Shown here piece by piece: positions 3,924-63,268 of a stretch of DNA of 64,000 nucleotides. The notes under the pieces are model-generated. The model did no database searches, was not told the DNA's origin, and saw only the letters and a list, made by a program, of their open reading frames with translations. Both the position numbers and the translations under genes were made by a program. The number at the start of each line of letters is the position of its first letter. Position 1 is the stretch's first letter. Source of the stretch: Chloroflexota bacterium (GTDB taxonomy: Bacteria; Chloroflexota; Dehalococcoidia; DSGV01); NCBI GenBank assembly GCA_021787985.1, contig JAJYLG010000005.1, forward strand, positions 1-64,000, given 5' to 3'.

Positions 3924-4823
3924 CTACTCGACCTCCGCCACCACGAACCGCCCGTCCCGCTCGCGACAGAACCCGTCGCGGGCCAGCGCCCGCAGGACGG
4001 CGAGCGCGTCGTGGCCGTCGGGCAGCAGCGGTCGAAGCTCCGCGGGGCTGAGCCCGCCCGGCCCCGCACGCACAAGTCCGCGCACCGCCAGCCCGCGCGC
4101 CTCGCGACGGGAGCCACGGTACGGCGCCTGGCGCGGCGAAGCGTACGCCTCCACGGCCTCGGCCACTCCCGCCCGCAACGCCCCCCGGGCCGCACACCAA
4201 GGTGACAGCGGGCAGACATCGCAGCGTGGCCGCCGTGGCAGGCATACCGTCGCGCCGATGTCCATCAACGCCGAGCTCCACGCCCACGCGGCGGCAGGCG
4301 GCACGGCAGCGCTGGCGAGCGCACGCAGCCCCGCCGGCCGTGTCACGCCAGCCAGCCGTCGCAGAACCCGGGTCACGTTCACGTCCAGCACGGGCTCGGG
4401 TCGCTCATACGCGAAGGCGGCGACCGCCGCCGCGACGTACCCGCCGACGCCCGGGAGCGCCCGCAGCGCGCCCGGATCGTCCGGCACCACGCCGCCGTGC
4501 CGCTCGACGACCACCCGCGCCGTCGCGTGGAGCTGCAGCGCCCGGCGGTTGTAGCCCAGCCCGCTCCACTCGTCGAGCAGGTGGGACATCGGCGCGCGCG
4601 CGAGCGCCTCGACCGAGGGGAAGCGCGCCAGGAAGCGCTCCCACCGACCGGCCACGCGCGACGCCTGCGTCTGACACAGCATCACTTCCGCGACGAGCAC
4701 CGCGTACGCATCGCGCGTCTCCCGCCACGGCAGGGACCGCCCGTGCTGCCGGAACCAGGCGAGCACCGCGGGACGGATGGAGGACCAGTCCACTGCGGGA
4801 GGTGCGATCGGCTCCGCGCTCAC
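3924..4823 (-). CDS. mutY: A/G-specific adenine glycosylase (MutY-like, no C-terminal NUDIX domain)
   Basis: HhH-GPD features (AEVMLCQTQASRV, LPGVGGYVAAAVAAFAY, VLDVNVTRVLRR) and Fe-S cysteine motif CLPRRPRCDVCPLSPWC. Confidence 0.88.
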   Translation of the reverse strand: MSAEPIAPPAVDWSSIRPAVLAWFRQHGRSLPWRETRDAYAVLVAEVMLCQTQASRVAGRWERFLARFPSVEALARAPMSHLLDEWSGLGYNRRALQLHATARVVVERHGGVVPDDPGALRALPGVGGYVAAAVAAFAYERPEPVLDVNVTRVLRRLAGVTRPAGLRALASAAVPPAAAWAWSSALMDIGATVCLPRRPRCDVCPLSPWCAARGALRAGVAEAVEAYASPRQAPYRGSRREARGLAVRGLVRAGPGGLSPAELRPLLPDGHDALAVLRALARDGFCRERDGRFVVAEVE

Positions 4824-4884
4824 GAGCCGATCGTGGCCCGGCGTACCGAGTTACACAACGGGCGCTTGCTACAATCCACAGGAG

Positions 4885-5727
4885 ATGTCCGAGACCAGCA
4901 CTACCCTGGAAGCCCGCGAGCGCGCCCTGCTCGCCTCCCTCGCCGGGATGGGCAGCGCCCTGGTCGCGTTCAGCGCCGGCGTCGATTCCACCCTTCTCGC
5001 TGCGGTTGCGCACGAGGTCCTGGGCGAACGGGCGCTCGCCGTTACCGGCATCTCACCGAGCGTCGCGGTTGAGGAGCGCGGGCAAGCGGCGGAGCTTGCC
5101 CGGGAGATCGGCGTGCGCTATCGGACGGTGGAGACACGCGAGATGGACGACCCGGGTTATGTCGCGAACAACCCGGACCGCTGCTTTCACTGCAAGGACG
5201 AGCTTCTCACGCGCCTGCGCGCCATCGCCGACGCGGAGAGGATCGCGTGGGTCGTCGATGGCTACAACGTCGATGACCTGGGCGATTACCGCCCCGGGCA
5301 GCAGGCCGCACGAATGCACGGCGTTCGCAGCCCGTTCGTCGAGGCCAGGCTGAACAAGTCCGACATCCGCGAGCTCTCCCGCCGGCGCGGTCTGCCCACC
5401 TGGGACAAGCCGGCCATGGCGTGCCTCTCCAGCCGCATCCCGTACGGCATCCACGTGACCGAGGAAGCGCTCCGACGGATCGGCGCCGCCGAGCTTCTGA
5501 TCCGGCAGCAGGGTGTGCGCACCGTGCGCGTGCGTCACCACGACACCGTCGCCCGCATCGAGACGGACCGCGCCGGCATGCGGGTCCTGTTGGAGGAGGA
5601 CGTGTCGGCGCGCGTCGTCGCCGGGCTCAAAGAGCTAGGTTACGCCTACGTCACGCTCGACCTGGCCGGCTACCGGTCCGGCAGCCTGAACGAGGTCCTG
5701 ACGCTCACCCCCGTGAGCCGCGGCTAG
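4885..5727 (+). CDS. larE: ATP-dependent sacrificial sulfur transferase LarE
   Basis: PP-loop AFSAGVDSTLLAAVA, NNPDRCFHCKDEL, WVVDGYNVDDLGDYRPG, CLSSRIPYG are LarE hallmarks; ATG 4885 preceded by GGAG. Confidence 0.93.
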   Translation: MSETSTTLEARERALLASLAGMGSALVAFSAGVDSTLLAAVAHEVLGERALAVTGISPSVAVEERGQAAELAREIGVRYRTVETREMDDPGYVANNPDRCFHCKDELLTRLRAIADAERIAWVVDGYNVDDLGDYRPGQQAARMHGVRSPFVEARLNKSDIRELSRRRGLPTWDKPAMACLSSRIPYGIHVTEEALRRIGAAELLIRQQGVRTVRVRHHDTVARIETDRAGMRVLLEEDVSARVVAGLKELGYAYVTLDLAGYRSGSLNEVLTLTPVSRG

Positions 5728-57825: not shown

Positions 57826-58071
57826 TCATTCGCCCCCTGTCTGCCGGTAGAAGCGGACCCGCCAGTCGCCGTCGGCGGTGCGGACGGTCTCGTGGGCGAA
57901 GCCGAGGCCGGCGAGCGCCGCGTAGAGCGGCACTGGCTCGAAAACGTTCACCACGACGAGCTCCTGGTCCGGCCGGAGACCCTGTAGCGCGGCCATGATC
58001 CGGCTGAATGGCTCACGGCCGGCGCGGATGTCCTCGCGGACGTCCACGGTCACCACGGTCATCTCGCTCAT
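57826..58071 (-). CDS. DUF2249 domain protein (paralogue 2)
   Basis: VTVDVREDIRAGREPFSRIMAALQGLRPDQELVVVNVFEPVPLYAALAGLGFAHETV...DWRVRFYR. Confidence 0.85.
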   Translation of the reverse strand: MSEMTVVTVDVREDIRAGREPFSRIMAALQGLRPDQELVVVNVFEPVPLYAALAGLGFAHETVRTADGDWRVRFYRQTGGE

Positions 58072-58301
58072 CGCGCCAGCCGGGTGATCCTGATGACCCA
58101 ACGCTCCGGGCCAGTCTCCTGTGGCTGCCATCCGACCTCGCCTGGGTGCTCGGCCATGAACTGGTAGTAGAGCGGCTTCGGGTCGTGGTCGTTCACGAGG
58201 AAGAACGACTCACCGGCCGCCAGGGCATCGTATGTACCGAAGATGAGCGGGTGACGCTGCGGCGGCGCCAGGCTGCGCACATCGATCACTTTCTCTGCCA
58301 T
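58068..58301 (-). CDS. DUF2249 domain protein (paralogue 1)
   Basis: VIDVRSLAPPQRHPLIFGTYDALAAGESFFLVNDHDPKPLYYQFMAEHPGEVGWQPQETGPERWVIRITR. Confidence 0.92.
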   Translation of the reverse strand: MAEKVIDVRSLAPPQRHPLIFGTYDALAAGESFFLVNDHDPKPLYYQFMAEHPGEVGWQPQETGPERWVIRITRLAR

Positions 58302-58303
58302 CG

Positions 58304-58540
58304 TCAGCCAGCCTCCGGCTCGTCGGTCTCCAGGCCGGCGGCGCGCAGCTCCTCGAGGATCTGCGCCACGCCAAGCCCGTGAGCCGTCAGTGCCATCCCG
58401 AGCGGGTGAGTCCCGCCGCAGCAGGTGTCGAGTCCGTGGCGGCCAAGCACGGGAAGCGCTGCGGGCCAACGCGCAGCCACGTCCCGCACCGGCATTGCCA
58501 GCAATGCTCCGACGCGGACGCGTGTCGTAGGCACGGTCAT
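58304..58540 (-). CDS. ScdA-N/DUF542-type small protein
   Basis: PVRDVAARWPAALPVLGRHGLDTCCGGTHPLGMALTAHGLGVAQILEELRAA; diagnostic LDTCCGG. Confidence 0.88.
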   Translation of the reverse strand: MTVPTTRVRVGALLAMPVRDVAARWPAALPVLGRHGLDTCCGGTHPLGMALTAHGLGVAQILEELRAAGLETDEPEAG

Positions 58541-58672
58541 CGTTTCACCTTCCGAGGGTTCTCCAGGTCGCCGGCTTCTCCGCCCCGCGGGCTCGTCGCG
58601 CTCAACGTCTGGGCCGGTGGCCCGGGCGTCCCCCATTGCATCGCCGGCCGCGGCCGCTGGCGATGACTTCCG

Positions 58673-59638
58673 TCACCCGCCGTCAGCCAGCGCCCGCAGG
58701 CGCTCGGCGTCCGCTACGACCACGCGACCCCGATCCAGCCGCACGAGCCCCTCGCGCTCCATGCCATGCAGCGAGCGCGCCACCACCTCCCGCGCGGTGC
58801 CCGCCAGGTCGGCGATATCTCGCTGGCTGAGCGCACGGATCTCTTCGACGCCCGCGCCGACGCCGGGCGCAGGGGCGGTCGCTTGCAACAGCACCTTGGC
58901 GATGCGCGCCGTGACCTGGCGGAACGACAGGTCCTCGACCAGCGCCACCATGTGCCGCAGCCGATTGGCCAGCATCCGCACCATGCCGCGCGCGAACCTC
59001 GGGCTGTTGATGAGCAGCGCATCGAGCGCGTCCTGCGGCACCAGCAGCAAGACCGCCGGCTCGACCGCCTCGACCGAGGCAGGGTTCGGCCCGCCGTCGA
59101 ACGCCGGGACCTCGTTCAGGCTCTCGCCCGCCCCCATCACGCGCAGGACCTGCTGGCGGCCGCTCGCCGCCGTGGTGAAGACGCGCACATGTCCCGACTG
59201 CACCACGAATAGGCCGGGAGACGACTGGCCCTCGGTGATCACCATGTCGCCCGCCGCGTGGCGCTGCTGGCGCAGCGACGGCACGAGCTGTGCCAGCTCG
59301 TCGGCGCCGAGCTGCGCGAAGTACGGCACCTTGCGCAGCGCCGGCGGGAGGCTGGCCGGCATGTCACTTCGGCTCGACGCGCTGGCCACGCGGTCGAGCT
59401 GCTGCGCCAGCTCATGCCAGCGGTTCCGGTTGACACGGCAGCGACCCGCCCCATCGCGGGTGACGAGGTCGGCGCGGACCAGGCCCTGCACGTCCTCGTC
59501 CAGGTCGGTGGGATCGACTCCCGCCAGCGAGGCGAGCGCGTCCACCGTGTCGGCGCCCCGCGCAACGCACATCGCCAGCAGCAGCCGCGCCTGATCGAGC
59601 GCGGCGAACGGATCGGCGGTGGTCTCGTCCAGCGTCAT
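58673..59638 (-). CDS. Crp/Fnr family transcriptional regulator with extra N-terminal winged-helix-like domain
   Basis: cNMP-binding fold (LRQQRHAAGDMVITEGQSSPGLFVVQSGHVRVFTTAASGRQQVLRVMGAGESLNEVPAFDGG); C-terminal HTH_Crp (ALSQRDIADLAGTAREVVARSLHGMEREGLVRLDRGRVVV); about 85 extra N-terminal residues. Confidence 0.92.
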   Translation of the reverse strand: MTLDETTADPFAALDQARLLLAMCVARGADTVDALASLAGVDPTDLDEDVQGLVRADLVTRDGAGRCRVNRNRWHELAQQLDRVASASSRSDMPASLPPALRKVPYFAQLGADELAQLVPSLRQQRHAAGDMVITEGQSSPGLFVVQSGHVRVFTTAASGRQQVLRVMGAGESLNEVPAFDGGPNPASVEAVEPAVLLLVPQDALDALLINSPRFARGMVRMLANRLRHMVALVEDLSFRQVTARIAKVLLQATAPAPGVGAGVEEIRALSQRDIADLAGTAREVVARSLHGMEREGLVRLDRGRVVVADAERLRALADGG

Positions 59639-59714
59639 GGCCCTTGCCCCCTGCGACAGAGGTTACTGCGGTCGTGGGACGTGCGATGCGTTGATGGGAC
59701 ATGGAGGACACACG

Positions 59715-61835
59715 ATGACATCCGCGGGCCGGGCTCCCATTTCCGCCAACGACAGCGTACGCGACGTCGTCCGGCGGTACCCAGGCATCGAATCGGTATT
59801 CGACCGCTTCGGGCTGGCAGGTTGCGGTGGGCCAAGCGGGCCGCTGGAACCGGTCGGCTTCTTCGCAGCAGTGCACCACGTGGACGTCGCGCGGCTCCTC
59901 GGCGAGCTGGCCGCCTACGCCGACGCCAGGGATCACCCGGTCCAGGCGCCACGACCGCAGGACCGCACCTATCGGTGGTTCACTTCCGTCTCGCTCGCGT
60001 TCTCGCTCTTTGCCGGCCTCATCATCGGCATCGTGGCCATCCTGGACAACGCCGCGGGCGGGTCGCTCGGCGGCCGCTGGGTGTCGTGGGTGCAGGCGCA
60101 CGGCCAGGCCCAGCTCGTTGGTTTCGTCGAGCTGTTCATCCTCGGGATCGGGTTCCACGTCATGCCTCGCTTCAAAGCGCAGGAGCCGCTGCCCGCGCGG
60201 CCGCGGCTCGCCGTCGGCGCGCTGCTCGCGGCCGGGGTGGCGGCACGGCTCGTCGCGCCGCTCCTGCCCTCGCCCATCGCGGCAGCATTCGTCGGGGTGG
60301 GCGCCCTCGCGATCGCGGGCGGGGGCGTCGCTGCCGGCGTCGCGTTCGGCTATCACCTCTGGCGTGCGCGCGACCGCCGCGAGTTCTACGACCCGATCAT
60401 CGGCGCCGCGGCCGCCTGGTTCGTCATCAGCGGCGTGATCTCGGCCGTGGGGGGCCTGCGCGCCTGGGCGAACGGAGCGCCTGCCGTGCGTCCCGATTGG
60501 GATGAGGCGCTGGTGATCTCGCAGCTCCTGGGCGTTGCGATGACGATGGCCTGGGGTGTCACCGCCCGGACGGTCCCCTTCTTCCTGAACCTACGGCAAC
60601 CGCACGAACGGACGGTGCTCGGCTCGGCGGCGCTGGAGCAGTTGGCGGTCGCGGCGCTGGTGGCCGCGCCACTTGTCGGCGGTGGCACGGCTCAGGCGCT
60701 GCGGATGACCGGCGCGGCCGCCCTGGCCGTCGCCGTGGCCGGCTTCGTGTTCGGCGTGCGACTGGCCGAGCCCGAGGAGAAGCGCGCCGACGCCGACCGC
60801 GCGCGCGAGCACACGCGCTTCGTGAAGCTGGCGTACATCTGGCTCGCCGTCGCGGCGCTGCTGCAGCTCGCCTGGTTCATCGTCGAACGCGGCGGGATCG
60901 TTCCCATGTGGCCGGCCGGCGCGATCCGGCACGCCTTCGCGGTCGGCTTCATCACCACGCTGATCATCGGGATGTCCTACCGGACCGTCCCGGTCTTCTC
61001 GGGGCACGAGCTGCGCCATCTCGGTCTCGTGCGGGCATCGTTCTGGCTCCTGTTCGCCGCCGCCGCGTTGCGCGTCCTGCCGGTCGGGGTCACGGACGCG
61101 CCGCCGGCCTTCGCGCGGGTCCTGGTCGGCGTGGCGGGGATCTCCCTCTGGGCCGCGCTGGCGGCGTTCGCCATCGTGCTGGCGGCGCTCCGCCGGTCGG
61201 TCGATGCCTCGCAGGCAGCGCAGGCCGCGCCCGAGGCCGCGCCCACGACGCAAGAGCCACCCGGCGCGCACGAGCCCGCGGACCTGCGCGCTTGGGCCGC
61301 GCCGGAGCGGACCGTGGAGGAGACGCTCGAGCGTTTCCCGACGAGCCTGGCCCGCTTCCTGGACCTCGGCTTCGCCACCTTGGCCGAACCGGCGATGCGC
61401 CGAGCCATGGCGCCATGCACGACGCTGGCGCAGGCCGCCGCCATTCGGGGACTGGGCTACGAGCAGCTCCTCGATCAGCTCGCGCCCACGCCCGCCGCCA
61501 CGGCTGGCGACGAAGACGACGGCTCTGTGAGCGTGGAGCTGGTCCGCATCGCGCTCAAGTCCGTGCACGACCCGGAGATCCCGGTCAACGTGGTCGACCT
61601 CGGTCTGATCTACGGCATCCGCGTCGAGCGCGGGAAGGTGGCCGTGCGCATGACGCTGACCTCCCCCTTCTGTCCGGTGGCCGACCAGGTGGTGCGAGAC
61701 GCGGAGGAGGCAGTGTACCAGGTGCCCGGGGTTGCCTCGGTGGACATCGAAGTAGTTTACGATCCGCCCTGGGACCCTGAGCGCATGACCGACGACGGCA
61801 AGCGACAGCTCGGTTGGGCCTCCGCGCCCGCATGA
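59715..61835 (+). CDS. Multidomain NnrS protein: ScdA-N-like / NnrS / DUF1858-like / MIP18 (DUF59) fusion
   Basis: N-term SVRDVVRRYPGIESVFDRFGLAGCGG; NnrS core (WVQAHGQAQLVGFVELFILGIGFHVMPRF, FITTLIIGMSYRTVPVFSGHEL); RTVEETLERFPTSLARFLDLGF; C-term VRIALKSVHDPEIPVNVVDLGLIYGIRVERGKVAVRMTLTSPFCPVADQVVRDAEEAVYQVPGVASVDIEVVYDPPWDPERMTDDGKRQLGW. Confidence 0.9.
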   Translation: MTSAGRAPISANDSVRDVVRRYPGIESVFDRFGLAGCGGPSGPLEPVGFFAAVHHVDVARLLGELAAYADARDHPVQAPRPQDRTYRWFTSVSLAFSLFAGLIIGIVAILDNAAGGSLGGRWVSWVQAHGQAQLVGFVELFILGIGFHVMPRFKAQEPLPARPRLAVGALLAAGVAARLVAPLLPSPIAAAFVGVGALAIAGGGVAAGVAFGYHLWRARDRREFYDPIIGAAAAWFVISGVISAVGGLRAWANGAPAVRPDWDEALVISQLLGVAMTMAWGVTARTVPFFLNLRQPHERTVLGSAALEQLAVAALVAAPLVGGGTAQALRMTGAAALAVAVAGFVFGVRLAEPEEKRADADRAREHTRFVKLAYIWLAVAALLQLAWFIVERGGIVPMWPAGAIRHAFAVGFITTLIIGMSYRTVPVFSGHELRHLGLVRASFWLLFAAAALRVLPVGVTDAPPAFARVLVGVAGISLWAALAAFAIVLAALRRSVDASQAAQAAPEAAPTTQEPPGAHEPADLRAWAAPERTVEETLERFPTSLARFLDLGFATLAEPAMRRAMAPCTTLAQAAAIRGLGYEQLLDQLAPTPAATAGDEDDGSVSVELVRIALKSVHDPEIPVNVVDLGLIYGIRVERGKVAVRMTLTSPFCPVADQVVRDAEEAVYQVPGVASVDIEVVYDPPWDPERMTDDGKRQLGWASAPA

Positions 61836-63268
61836 CGCCGCCCCCCGGCGCGCGAAACGACGAGCCGGTCATCCTGGCCACCGCACGCGGCGGCGAGGTC
61901 GTGCCGGCCGTCGAGGACCGCTCGTACCTGGCGTACGTTGCCGCGGCGCTGGCGGTCGCGCTGTTGGGTGGCTTCGTCCTCGCGGTGCTGGTGCCGCTCA
62001 CGGCGATCGGGACGCTCCCATGGGCGGAGCGCCTGCCCGAGCTGATCCAGGCCCACGGCTGGGCCCAGCTCCAGGGCTGGGCCGGCATCTTCGTGGCCGG
62101 CATGGGCCTGCGCCTCATCCCGCGCTTCGCCGGCCGCCACCCCATCCCGGTCACGATCACACTGCCGGTCCTCGCCCTGCTGCTCGCGGGAGTGGTCTTG
62201 CGCACCCTGCTGCAGCCGGCCGCCGGCCGCGCGCTCGCCGACGTCGGGCTGCTGGCCGGCGTCACGTGTTCCGCGGTTGCGATGCTGAGCTTCGCCGGCA
62301 CGCTTGGGTACACGCTGCACCGCGGGCGCAAGCGGCCCGAGCCGTGGCGCTACTTCGCCTGGGCGGGTGCGGTCTGGTGGGCGGCCTGGGCCGTCCTGGT
62401 GCTTGCCGCGGGAGTCCGCGCGACGGCCAACGACGGACTCGTGCCGGGCATGCTCGACGAGGCGTCGACCTGGGTGGTCTTCTTCGGCGCCATCGCCAAC
62501 TTCATCTGGGCGATCCAGAGCCGCAGCGTGCCGGTATTCTTCGGGCGTCGGCCGCCCACCCTGCGGCGCGTGCTCGCCCCTGGCGCCCTGCTCAACGCGG
62601 GCGTGCTTCTGGTACTGCTCTCCATCCTGCCGTGGTCCGACGCGGCGGCGACCCGTCTCGAGGGTCTCGGACTGACCCTGGCAGGATTGGCCACCGCCTG
62701 GCTCGCACCACTGGCCGGGTCGATCTCCGGCCGAGCACACCGGCTGCGGCCACGGGCCCGCGCTGCCTCGCGGTTCGTCCTGGCGGCAGACTGGTGGGCC
62801 ATGGTGGCCGGCGCGCTCGCCATGTGGGCCGGGATCGCATCGCTCGCCAGCGGCCGGTTCGAGCTGTTCGGCGTGCGCGACGCGGCCCGTCACGCGCTCG
62901 GGATCGGCCTGATCTCCATGCTCATCGTGGGCATGGCGCAGCTCGTCGCTCCGGTGTTCGCGCTGGAACGCGCGGAGGCACGGCCGCCCGGCGTCGAATA
63001 CGTGGTCGGCTGGCCGGCGCTCTTCCTGGCGGCCGGCATGCGAGTTGCCGCCGGAGTGCTGTTCGGGCATATGGGCGAACGTGCGCGGATGGAGCTGATC
63101 GCCGCCGCCGGGGTGCTCGGCTGGATCGGCATCGCGGCCTTCGCCTGGAGCGTGGTCCGCGCGCGTCAGGGAGCCGCGCATGAAGGCGCTCCTCACGGAG
63201 GAAGCCGCGTTGGCGGCGAAGCGCAACCGCCGCCGGCCAGATTGAGCCGGGCCGCTATGCCAGGTTGA
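61832..63268 (+). CDS. Second NnrS-like multipass membrane protein
   Basis: LPELIQAHGWAQLQGWAGIFVAGMGLRLIPRFAGRHP; NFIWAIQSRSVPVFFGRRPP; GIGLISMLIVGMAQLVAPVFALERAEA; ATGA overlap with preceding gene. Confidence 0.85.
   Translation: MTPPPGARNDEPVILATARGGEVVPAVEDRSYLAYVAAALAVALLGGFVLAVLVPLTAIGTLPWAERLPELIQAHGWAQLQGWAGIFVAGMGLRLIPRFAGRHPIPVTITLPVLALLLAGVVLRTLLQPAAGRALADVGLLAGVTCSAVAMLSFAGTLGYTLHRGRKRPEPWRYFAWAGAVWWAAWAVLVLAAGVRATANDGLVPGMLDEASTWVVFFGAIANFIWAIQSRSVPVFFGRRPPTLRRVLAPGALLNAGVLLVLLSILPWSDAAATRLEGLGLTLAGLATAWLAPLAGSISGRAHRLRPRARAASRFVLAADWWAMVAGALAMWAGIASLASGRFELFGVRDAARHALGIGLISMLIVGMAQLVAPVFALERAEARPPGVEYVVGWPALFLAAGMRVAAGVLFGHMGERARMELIAAAGVLGWIGIAAFAWSVVRARQGAAHEGAPHGGSRVGGEAQPPPARLSRAAMPG
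63180..63245 (+). CDS. Candidate 21-aa small ORF overlapping the end of the second NnrS gene
   Basis: MKALLTEEAALAAKRNRRRPD*, AGGGAG upstream, +1 frame relative to NnrS2. Confidence 0.25.
   Translation: MKALLTEEAALAAKRNRRRPD

Follow-up and report, generated by a model that had tools for sequence, protein, structure and literature searches.

A conserved DUF1858-NnrS-DUF1858-MIP18 fusion protein in Chloroflexota and a possible link between nitric oxide handling and Fe-S assembly

NnrS (PF05940) is known elsewhere as a nitric oxide (NO) response protein (PMC1274295). It is described as a membrane protein that contains haem and copper (PMC10256816). In Vibrio cholerae it reduces the formation of dinitrosyl iron and shields Fe-S proteins and the iron pool against NO (Stern 2013, as summarised in PMC4601167 and PMC11526790). 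COG4309 is co-transcribed with nor genes and has been proposed to matter for NO reductase (PMC1274295). The sites described for regulators of nitrogen-oxide metabolism include that of the CRP-like HcpR, wTGTGAnnnnnnTCACAw, and GTAACnnnnGTTAC (PMC1274295).

Maturation of Fe-S proteins by SufT takes place when demand is high, and the protein carries one conserved hyper-reactive cysteine (PMC4982691). MIP18 domains have no classical cluster-binding motif (PMC4982691). A survey of 2016 described nine modular DUF59 architectures, including DUF59 with DUF1858 (S6, n = 4) and none with NnrS (PMC4982691). In Thermus, both nitrate-dependent control and an active nitrate reductase require DrpA (DUF2249) and DrpB (DUF1858 and two DUF2249 domains); a drpA/drpB double mutant makes NarG with about a tenth of the activity, and transcription of the nar and dnr promoters is affected by DrpB (PMC6282519).

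A gene encoding a fusion of four modules was identified in the window, which here means the whole stretch of 64,000 nucleotides analysed, from a Chloroflexota genome of 3.5 Mb that is about 96% complete (G000). The features of the locus are collected in Table 1. The open reading frame extends from the ATG at 59715 to the TGA at 61833-61835 with zero internal stops, and its codon-position GC keeps one register along the whole length (0.80-0.96 at the third position, 0.38-0.61 at the second), so nothing points to two genes brought together by a frame shift. The Pfam matches of the protein are FeS_assembly_P (78.1 bits, residues 610-677, cut-off 23.5), NnrS (66.3 bits, residues 95-490, profile positions 13-364 of 371, cut-off 28) and DUF1858 (PF08984; 63.9 bits over two stretches, the best at 531-585, cut-off 32.2). 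The start of the second NnrS gene overlaps the stop of the fusion gene (ATGA), and the two are therefore probably co-transcribed and translationally coupled. Two NnrS genes likewise stand in tandem in genome G380 (L082, 4754-6109 and 6323-8353).

Table 1. Features of the fusion locus (positions in the window)
Feature	Position	Strand	Description
Four-module fusion CDS, DUF1858 - NnrS - DUF1858 - MIP18/SufT	59715..61835	+	706 aa; open frame, Pfam and NCBIfam matches, five full-length homologues
N-terminal DUF1858 domain	59739..59909	+	residues 9-65; invariant Cys37 (GCGG); DUF1858 and TIGR03980 matches
NnrS core	59997..61184	+	12 predicted TM helices; His129 and His406 align with NorB/COX1 low-spin haem ligands
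Second DUF1858 domain	61305..61469	+	residues 531-585; without conserved Cys
MIP18/SufT domain (DUF59, FeS_assembly_P)	61527..61817	+	residues 605-701; conserved Cys653 (SPFCP)
Second, divergent NnrS protein	61832..63268	+	478 aa; NnrS 18.4 bits (under cut-off); 32% identity to fusion core
Palindromic Crp/Fnr-type operator	59652..59669	.	TGCGACAGAGGTTACTGC; between divergent regulator and fusion
Divergent Crp/Fnr-family regulator	58673..59638	-	cNMP_binding 71.7 bits, HTH_Crp_2 54.6 bits
ScdA_N (DUF542) protein	58304..58636	-	canonical CCGG; 41.1 bits
DUF2249 protein (DrpA-like family)	58068..58469	-	104.4 bits
Second DUF2249 protein	57826..58131	-	68.9 bits

The first-pass annotation had described four modules in one polypeptide. 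NnrS and MIP18 were both assigned over the Pfam cut-offs and the second DUF1858 domain was also recovered, but the first module, read there as ScdA-N-like, scores as DUF1858. Scanned alone, the first 82 residues match only DUF1858 (residues 9-61, E 6e-7); this copy by itself reaches 29.9 bits, just below the cut-off of 32.2, and TIGR03980 of NCBIfam ('hybrid cluster protein-associated redox disulfide domain') matches residues 14-65 with 29.5 bits. Assignment of the segment to ScdA_N (PF04405) was rejected (11.4 bits against a cut-off of 32.5; GCGG with one cysteine). The GCGG that had been remarked on as standing in place of CCGG is present, but it is typical of this protein family: C37, G38 and G39 are unchanged in all 15 homologues aligned. 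The only other cysteines of the fusion are C568, which is not conserved, and C653, the conserved cysteine of MIP18. The di-iron repair proteins ScdA and YtfE (RIC) resemble the fusion in having a small Cys domain of comparable type at the N-terminus and a role, proposed in the case of the fusion, connected with NO and Fe-S clusters, whereas their hemerythrin domain is absent from it.

Relatives were sought in overlapping draws of 245, 400, 177, 29 and 393 genomes from its own class, the phylum and two other classes of the phylum. The search for other proteins combining NnrS with DUF59, which had been suggested at the outset, yielded five further full-length four-module fusions, in G239 and G147 (43-44% identity), G179 (41%), G451 (38%) and G173 (37%). 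That of G451 belongs to another class than G000. All modules were confirmed by Pfam in the four fusions scanned (G239, G179, G173 and G451). Split NnrS and SufT neighbours exist in relatives and could have been joined by an assembly or frame artefact; against this stand the single intact frame, the constant codon-position GC and the recurrence of the fusion, at 37-44% identity, in five further genomes, which rule the artefact out for practical purposes and bear out the reading as a single gene. No relatives were found among the viral contigs scanned. Plasmids searched by tblastn gave, among the matches listed, only SufT-like genes with the full protein and nothing with the NnrS part alone, and one scan of genome contigs gave MIP18 or Mrp matches only. 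The literature search found no paper pairing NnrS with DUF59, SufT or MIP18, and the architecture is undescribed in the papers searched; it is a new, conserved variant made of known families.

The membrane topology of the NnrS core was predicted from helix hydrophobicity and loop charge, taken as means over 15 homologues, among which the K/R-rich loops alternate consistently (positive-inside). The prediction is 12 TM helices with both termini on the K/R-rich, cytoplasmic side, which would place the MIP18 domain and the two DUF1858 domains in the cytosol. NnrS proteins of the Rhodobacter and Vibrio cholerae type have in common with the fusion the membrane core and, probably, the NO-response context and Crp/Fnr-linked control; in contrast, they lack cytosolic DUF1858 and SufT domains, and the branch of the fusion is remote from them. 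Some homologues match Pfam COX1, that at L077 over the cut-off with 44.4 bits. Profile-profile comparison (hhalign) of 26 NnrS cores with NorB/COX1-like proteins gave an alignment of 378 columns with P about 1e-10; the value was about 0.5 for reversed profiles, and 0.28 or worse for polytopic proteins encoded at these loci that belong neither to NnrS nor to the haem-copper subunits. His129 (QAHG) aligns with the haem histidine of helix II and His406 (RHA) with the second histidine of the helix X HxH, and both are invariant among the aligned homologues. Thus, NorB/COX1 subunit I resembles the core over its full length and in these two histidines, but its ligands for high-spin haem and CuB/FeB, among them the first helix X histidine and the metal ligands of helices VI/VII, are not retained, and no NO- or O2-reducing centre is therefore expected in the core. 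From these alignments we infer that NnrS belongs to the haem-copper superfamily and has kept no more than the low-spin haem site; a small literature check found no paper stating such kinship. The full-length likeness to NorB/COX1 extends to the NnrS homologue at L077:7263-9326. Contig C135 of G000 encodes a 640-aa membrane protein (L101:9390-11771) that matches the C-terminal half of COX1 repeatedly and lies beside a small cytochrome c; it is possibly an unusual haem-copper or NO-reductase-like subunit.

The fused MIP18 domain contains HDPEIP at residues 618-623 and Cys653 within SPFCP, and the cysteine is kept in all six fused domains. It scores 107.7 bits on TIGR02945 (curated cut-off 143.4) and 103.9 bits on TIGR03406 (202.6), below both cut-offs. 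The SufT-type copy in the genome's own suf operon also falls below the TIGR02945 cut-off, with 97.0 bits, so the equivalog cut-off does not discriminate here. The fused domain is filed as MIP18-type and not as SufT itself. PDB relatives were found with confidence for the MIP18 part only: 1uwd (TM0487; E 7e-22), 2cu6, 5ird and 3lno. An AlphaFold model made from two window sequences had a mean pLDDT of 41 and was set aside for fold searches. The SufT/MIP18/DUF59 family (PF01883; TIGR02945; TM0487 1uwd; CIAO2 in eukaryotes) shares sequence homology, the conserved DPE and the single cysteine with the fused domain. Its members are soluble, stand-alone proteins often found beside suf genes, whereas the fused domain is part of a polytopic membrane protein and is encoded away from the SUF operon. 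The SUF locus of G000 encodes SufB-like, SufD, Rieske ferredoxin, SufS, SufU and SufT-type proteins, and the genome further carries an Mrp protein and two PaaD-like proteins; the fused domain is thus an additional one. Its origin as a copy of the genome's own SufT was tested as a clade in the MIP18 tree and rejected (AU p 0.002), which, with a separate SufT in the SUF operon, makes the fused domain a specialised extra.

Unfused arrangements of the same modules are found in other genomes as three-module DUF1858-NnrS-DUF1858 proteins. A separate SufT-type gene lies downstream on the same strand in six of the nine three-module loci with usable flanks, its DPE motif being 60-870 bp from the NnrS end; these loci belong to G429 and G457, where the genes overlap, G380, G060 and G118 (two loci). 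In the other three (G023, G007 and G018), no MIP18 gene was found near the three-module NnrS. The SufT part is therefore not obligatory, which counts against the Fe-S maturation role proposed below. The 1.5-kb flanks of seven loci encoding NnrS without DUF1858 contained no MIP18 motif. In G352 (L083:3905-8450), the gene order is Mrp/ApbC (MIP18 and ParA), NnrS without DUF1858, DUF2249, a NifU-like protein and a molybdopterin-binding oxidoreductase, with a separate ScdA_N gene upstream; here Fe-S carriers are joined to NnrS without fusion. This grouping with ApbC/Mrp and NifU favours Fe-S traffic over recruitment of the SufT-type domain for another metal or thiol role, such as iron or copper loading of the NnrS core instead of service to client Fe-S proteins. 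Such a role would suit the haem and copper attributed to NnrS (PMC10256816) and the missing classical cluster-binding motif of MIP18 domains (PMC4982691), but we give it very little credence. Some of the NnrS proteins at L077, L080, L081 and L082 contain three DUF1858 domains, and L080 has an extra stand-alone DUF1858 gene directly upstream, which suggests that DUF1858 domains are gained readily.

The MIP18 tree (43 rows, 102 columns) was used to compare topologies by the AU test. The fused MIP18 domains as one clade were not rejected (AU p 0.34), whereas the operonic copies as one clade (AU p 0.005) and the fused and operonic copies as one clade (AU p 0.0065) were. In the NnrS-core tree the fused proteins form no clade, and the core of G173 is placed with an unfused one from G224. 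For the NnrS core, one common origin of all the fused proteins was rejected (AU p about 1e-137); for the SufT domain it was not. The rejected operonic and combined clades and the scattered NnrS cores indicate that associations of NnrS with MIP18 probably arose repeatedly, or that parts were swapped or lost. An association that recurs speaks more strongly for a functional connection than one fusion would.

From the observed architecture, conservation, domain homology, synteny and operator, we propose that the fusion is a factor for Fe-S maturation or repair, tethered to the membrane and employed in the presence of nitrogen oxides, a reading to which we give even odds. The 12-helix NnrS core, NorB-like with a low-spin haem site only, may bind haem and would lower or handle NO (or free iron-NO) at the cytoplasmic membrane. 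By the predicted topology, it would hold at the cytoplasmic face the DUF1858 domain with Cys37, the second DUF1858 domain and the SufT-type domain with its single reactive cysteine. The SufT domain could then keep Fe-S carriage and insertion working locally while NO is made, and its clients may be membrane Fe-S enzymes, such as the beta subunits of nitrate reductases or DMSO-type enzymes. The neighbouring Crp/Fnr regulator would be the one that switches the fusion on through the TGYGAC-N4-GTYAC operator. Two points of background count against this proposal: to our knowledge DUF1858 has no known function, and SufT domains have one conserved cysteine only. The first-pass annotation had suggested coupling of NO/haem-metal sensing to Fe-S cluster repair or delivery. 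The link between an NO response and Fe-S assembly has gained independent support from six genomes with the fusion, five more with operon neighbours, an Mrp/NifU neighbourhood in another and an operator common to nar, nir and nos genes. The fusion, the repeated operon links to SufT-, Mrp- and NifU-type proteins and the common denitrification operator point to one physical pathway in which membrane NO handling is coupled to Fe-S assembly, and the fusion offers one polypeptide in which each step can be probed by mutation. A bolder version, which we consider improbable, would have Cys37 (DUF1858) and Cys653 (SufT) jointly hold a cluster or iron for reinsertion in a membrane-powered Fe-S repair machine; NnrS would then be a former NO-reductase-like subunit that uses the haem left to it to send electrons or an NO-dependent signal into the tethered cytosolic domains.

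Comparison of promoters gave the operator pattern as the palindrome TGYGAC-NNAR-GTYAC-NGC, which resembles the HcpR site and GTAACnnnnGTTAC introduced above (PMC1274295). With up to one mismatch, TGYGACNNARGTYACNGC has one match in the 3.5 Mb G000 genome, in the fusion promoter. Across ten whole genomes (about 35 Mb), exact copies precede the fusion gene of G000, the NnrS genes of G147, G118 (two loci), G060 and G429, the narG of G451 (about 250 bp upstream of the estimated start) and the Cu-nitrite-reductase gene of G027 (TIGR02376 207 bits, E 4.5e-61, under the curated 296). A copy with one mismatch precedes the plastocyanin-nosZ of G429 (TIGR04246 575 bits, over a truncated frame). The pattern was written from the copies of G000, G147 and G118, and the G060 copy equals that of G118; the copies of G429, G451 and G027 did not enter into it. 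Allowing one mismatch gave 23 matches (forward plus reverse, with exact copies counted in), compared with 16 for the backwards control; one-mismatch matches are mostly noise, so only exact matches and those before recognisable genes were used. The TGYGACNNARGTYACNGC palindrome seems to mark out a denitrification regulon (narG, Cu-nitrite-reductase, plastocyanin-nosZ, DUF2249 and NnrS) in these Chloroflexota-like genomes. Homologous operator sites are present at L085:1219, L111:1501, L115 and L124.

The fusion of G451 lies just downstream of narGHJIK and two DUF2249 genes, and those of G147, G239, G179 and G173 (L067-L070) lie between alpha/beta genes of type II DMSO reductases (EbdA-like, ethylbenzene-dehydrogenase-like). 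The latter four genomes contain 8-15 alpha-subunit matches each, several of them flanking the fusion. These positions favour the main rival explanation, a maturation platform for respiratory molybdo/Fe-S enzymes and not for the repair of NO damage, in which SufT and DUF1858 would assist, at the membrane, in equipping NarH-type subunits with Fe-S clusters and the NnrS core would be a mere haem-bearing anchor or electron source. It is also favoured by DrpA and DrpB, DUF2249 and DUF1858 proteins that likewise lie beside nitrate respiration genes with a dedicated regulator and are required for active nitrate reductase; they differ in having no NnrS core and no SufT domain, and have been proposed as nitrate sensors (PMC6282519). 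We regard the platform as possible but somewhat unlikely: G000, G118, G060, G429 and G380 have no adjacent nar or type II gene, the operator is found as well before nir and nos genes, where no Fe-S clusters are involved, and NnrS elsewhere is an NO-response protein (PMC1274295). The NO-linked Fe-S maturation role that we prefer has difficulties of its own in G000, where, at about 96% completeness, neither narG above E 1e-40 nor nirK above E 1e-20 was found; the nitrate-reductase-like genes found there amount to one type II DMSO-family alpha match.

The neighbours common to the loci are a Crp/Fnr regulator, one or two DUF2249 proteins and ScdA_N. The fusion is divergent from and adjoins the regulator in G000, G147 and G239, as would be expected of a sensor whose NnrS core responds to NO or redox state and whose cytosolic DUF1858 and SufT domains pass the signal on to the regulator. 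The effect of DrpB on nar and dnr promoters points the same way (PMC6282519). Still, the regulator is not adjacent at every locus (e.g., L070), the fusion contains no signalling domain and the established roles of SufT-type domains are in Fe-S maturation and not in signalling (PMC4982691), and we attach only a small probability to sensing. The regulator in the window has an extra helix-turn-helix-like region at its N-terminus before the cNMP domain, and the N-terminus of the L071 regulator (4557-5513) seems ArsR-like too.
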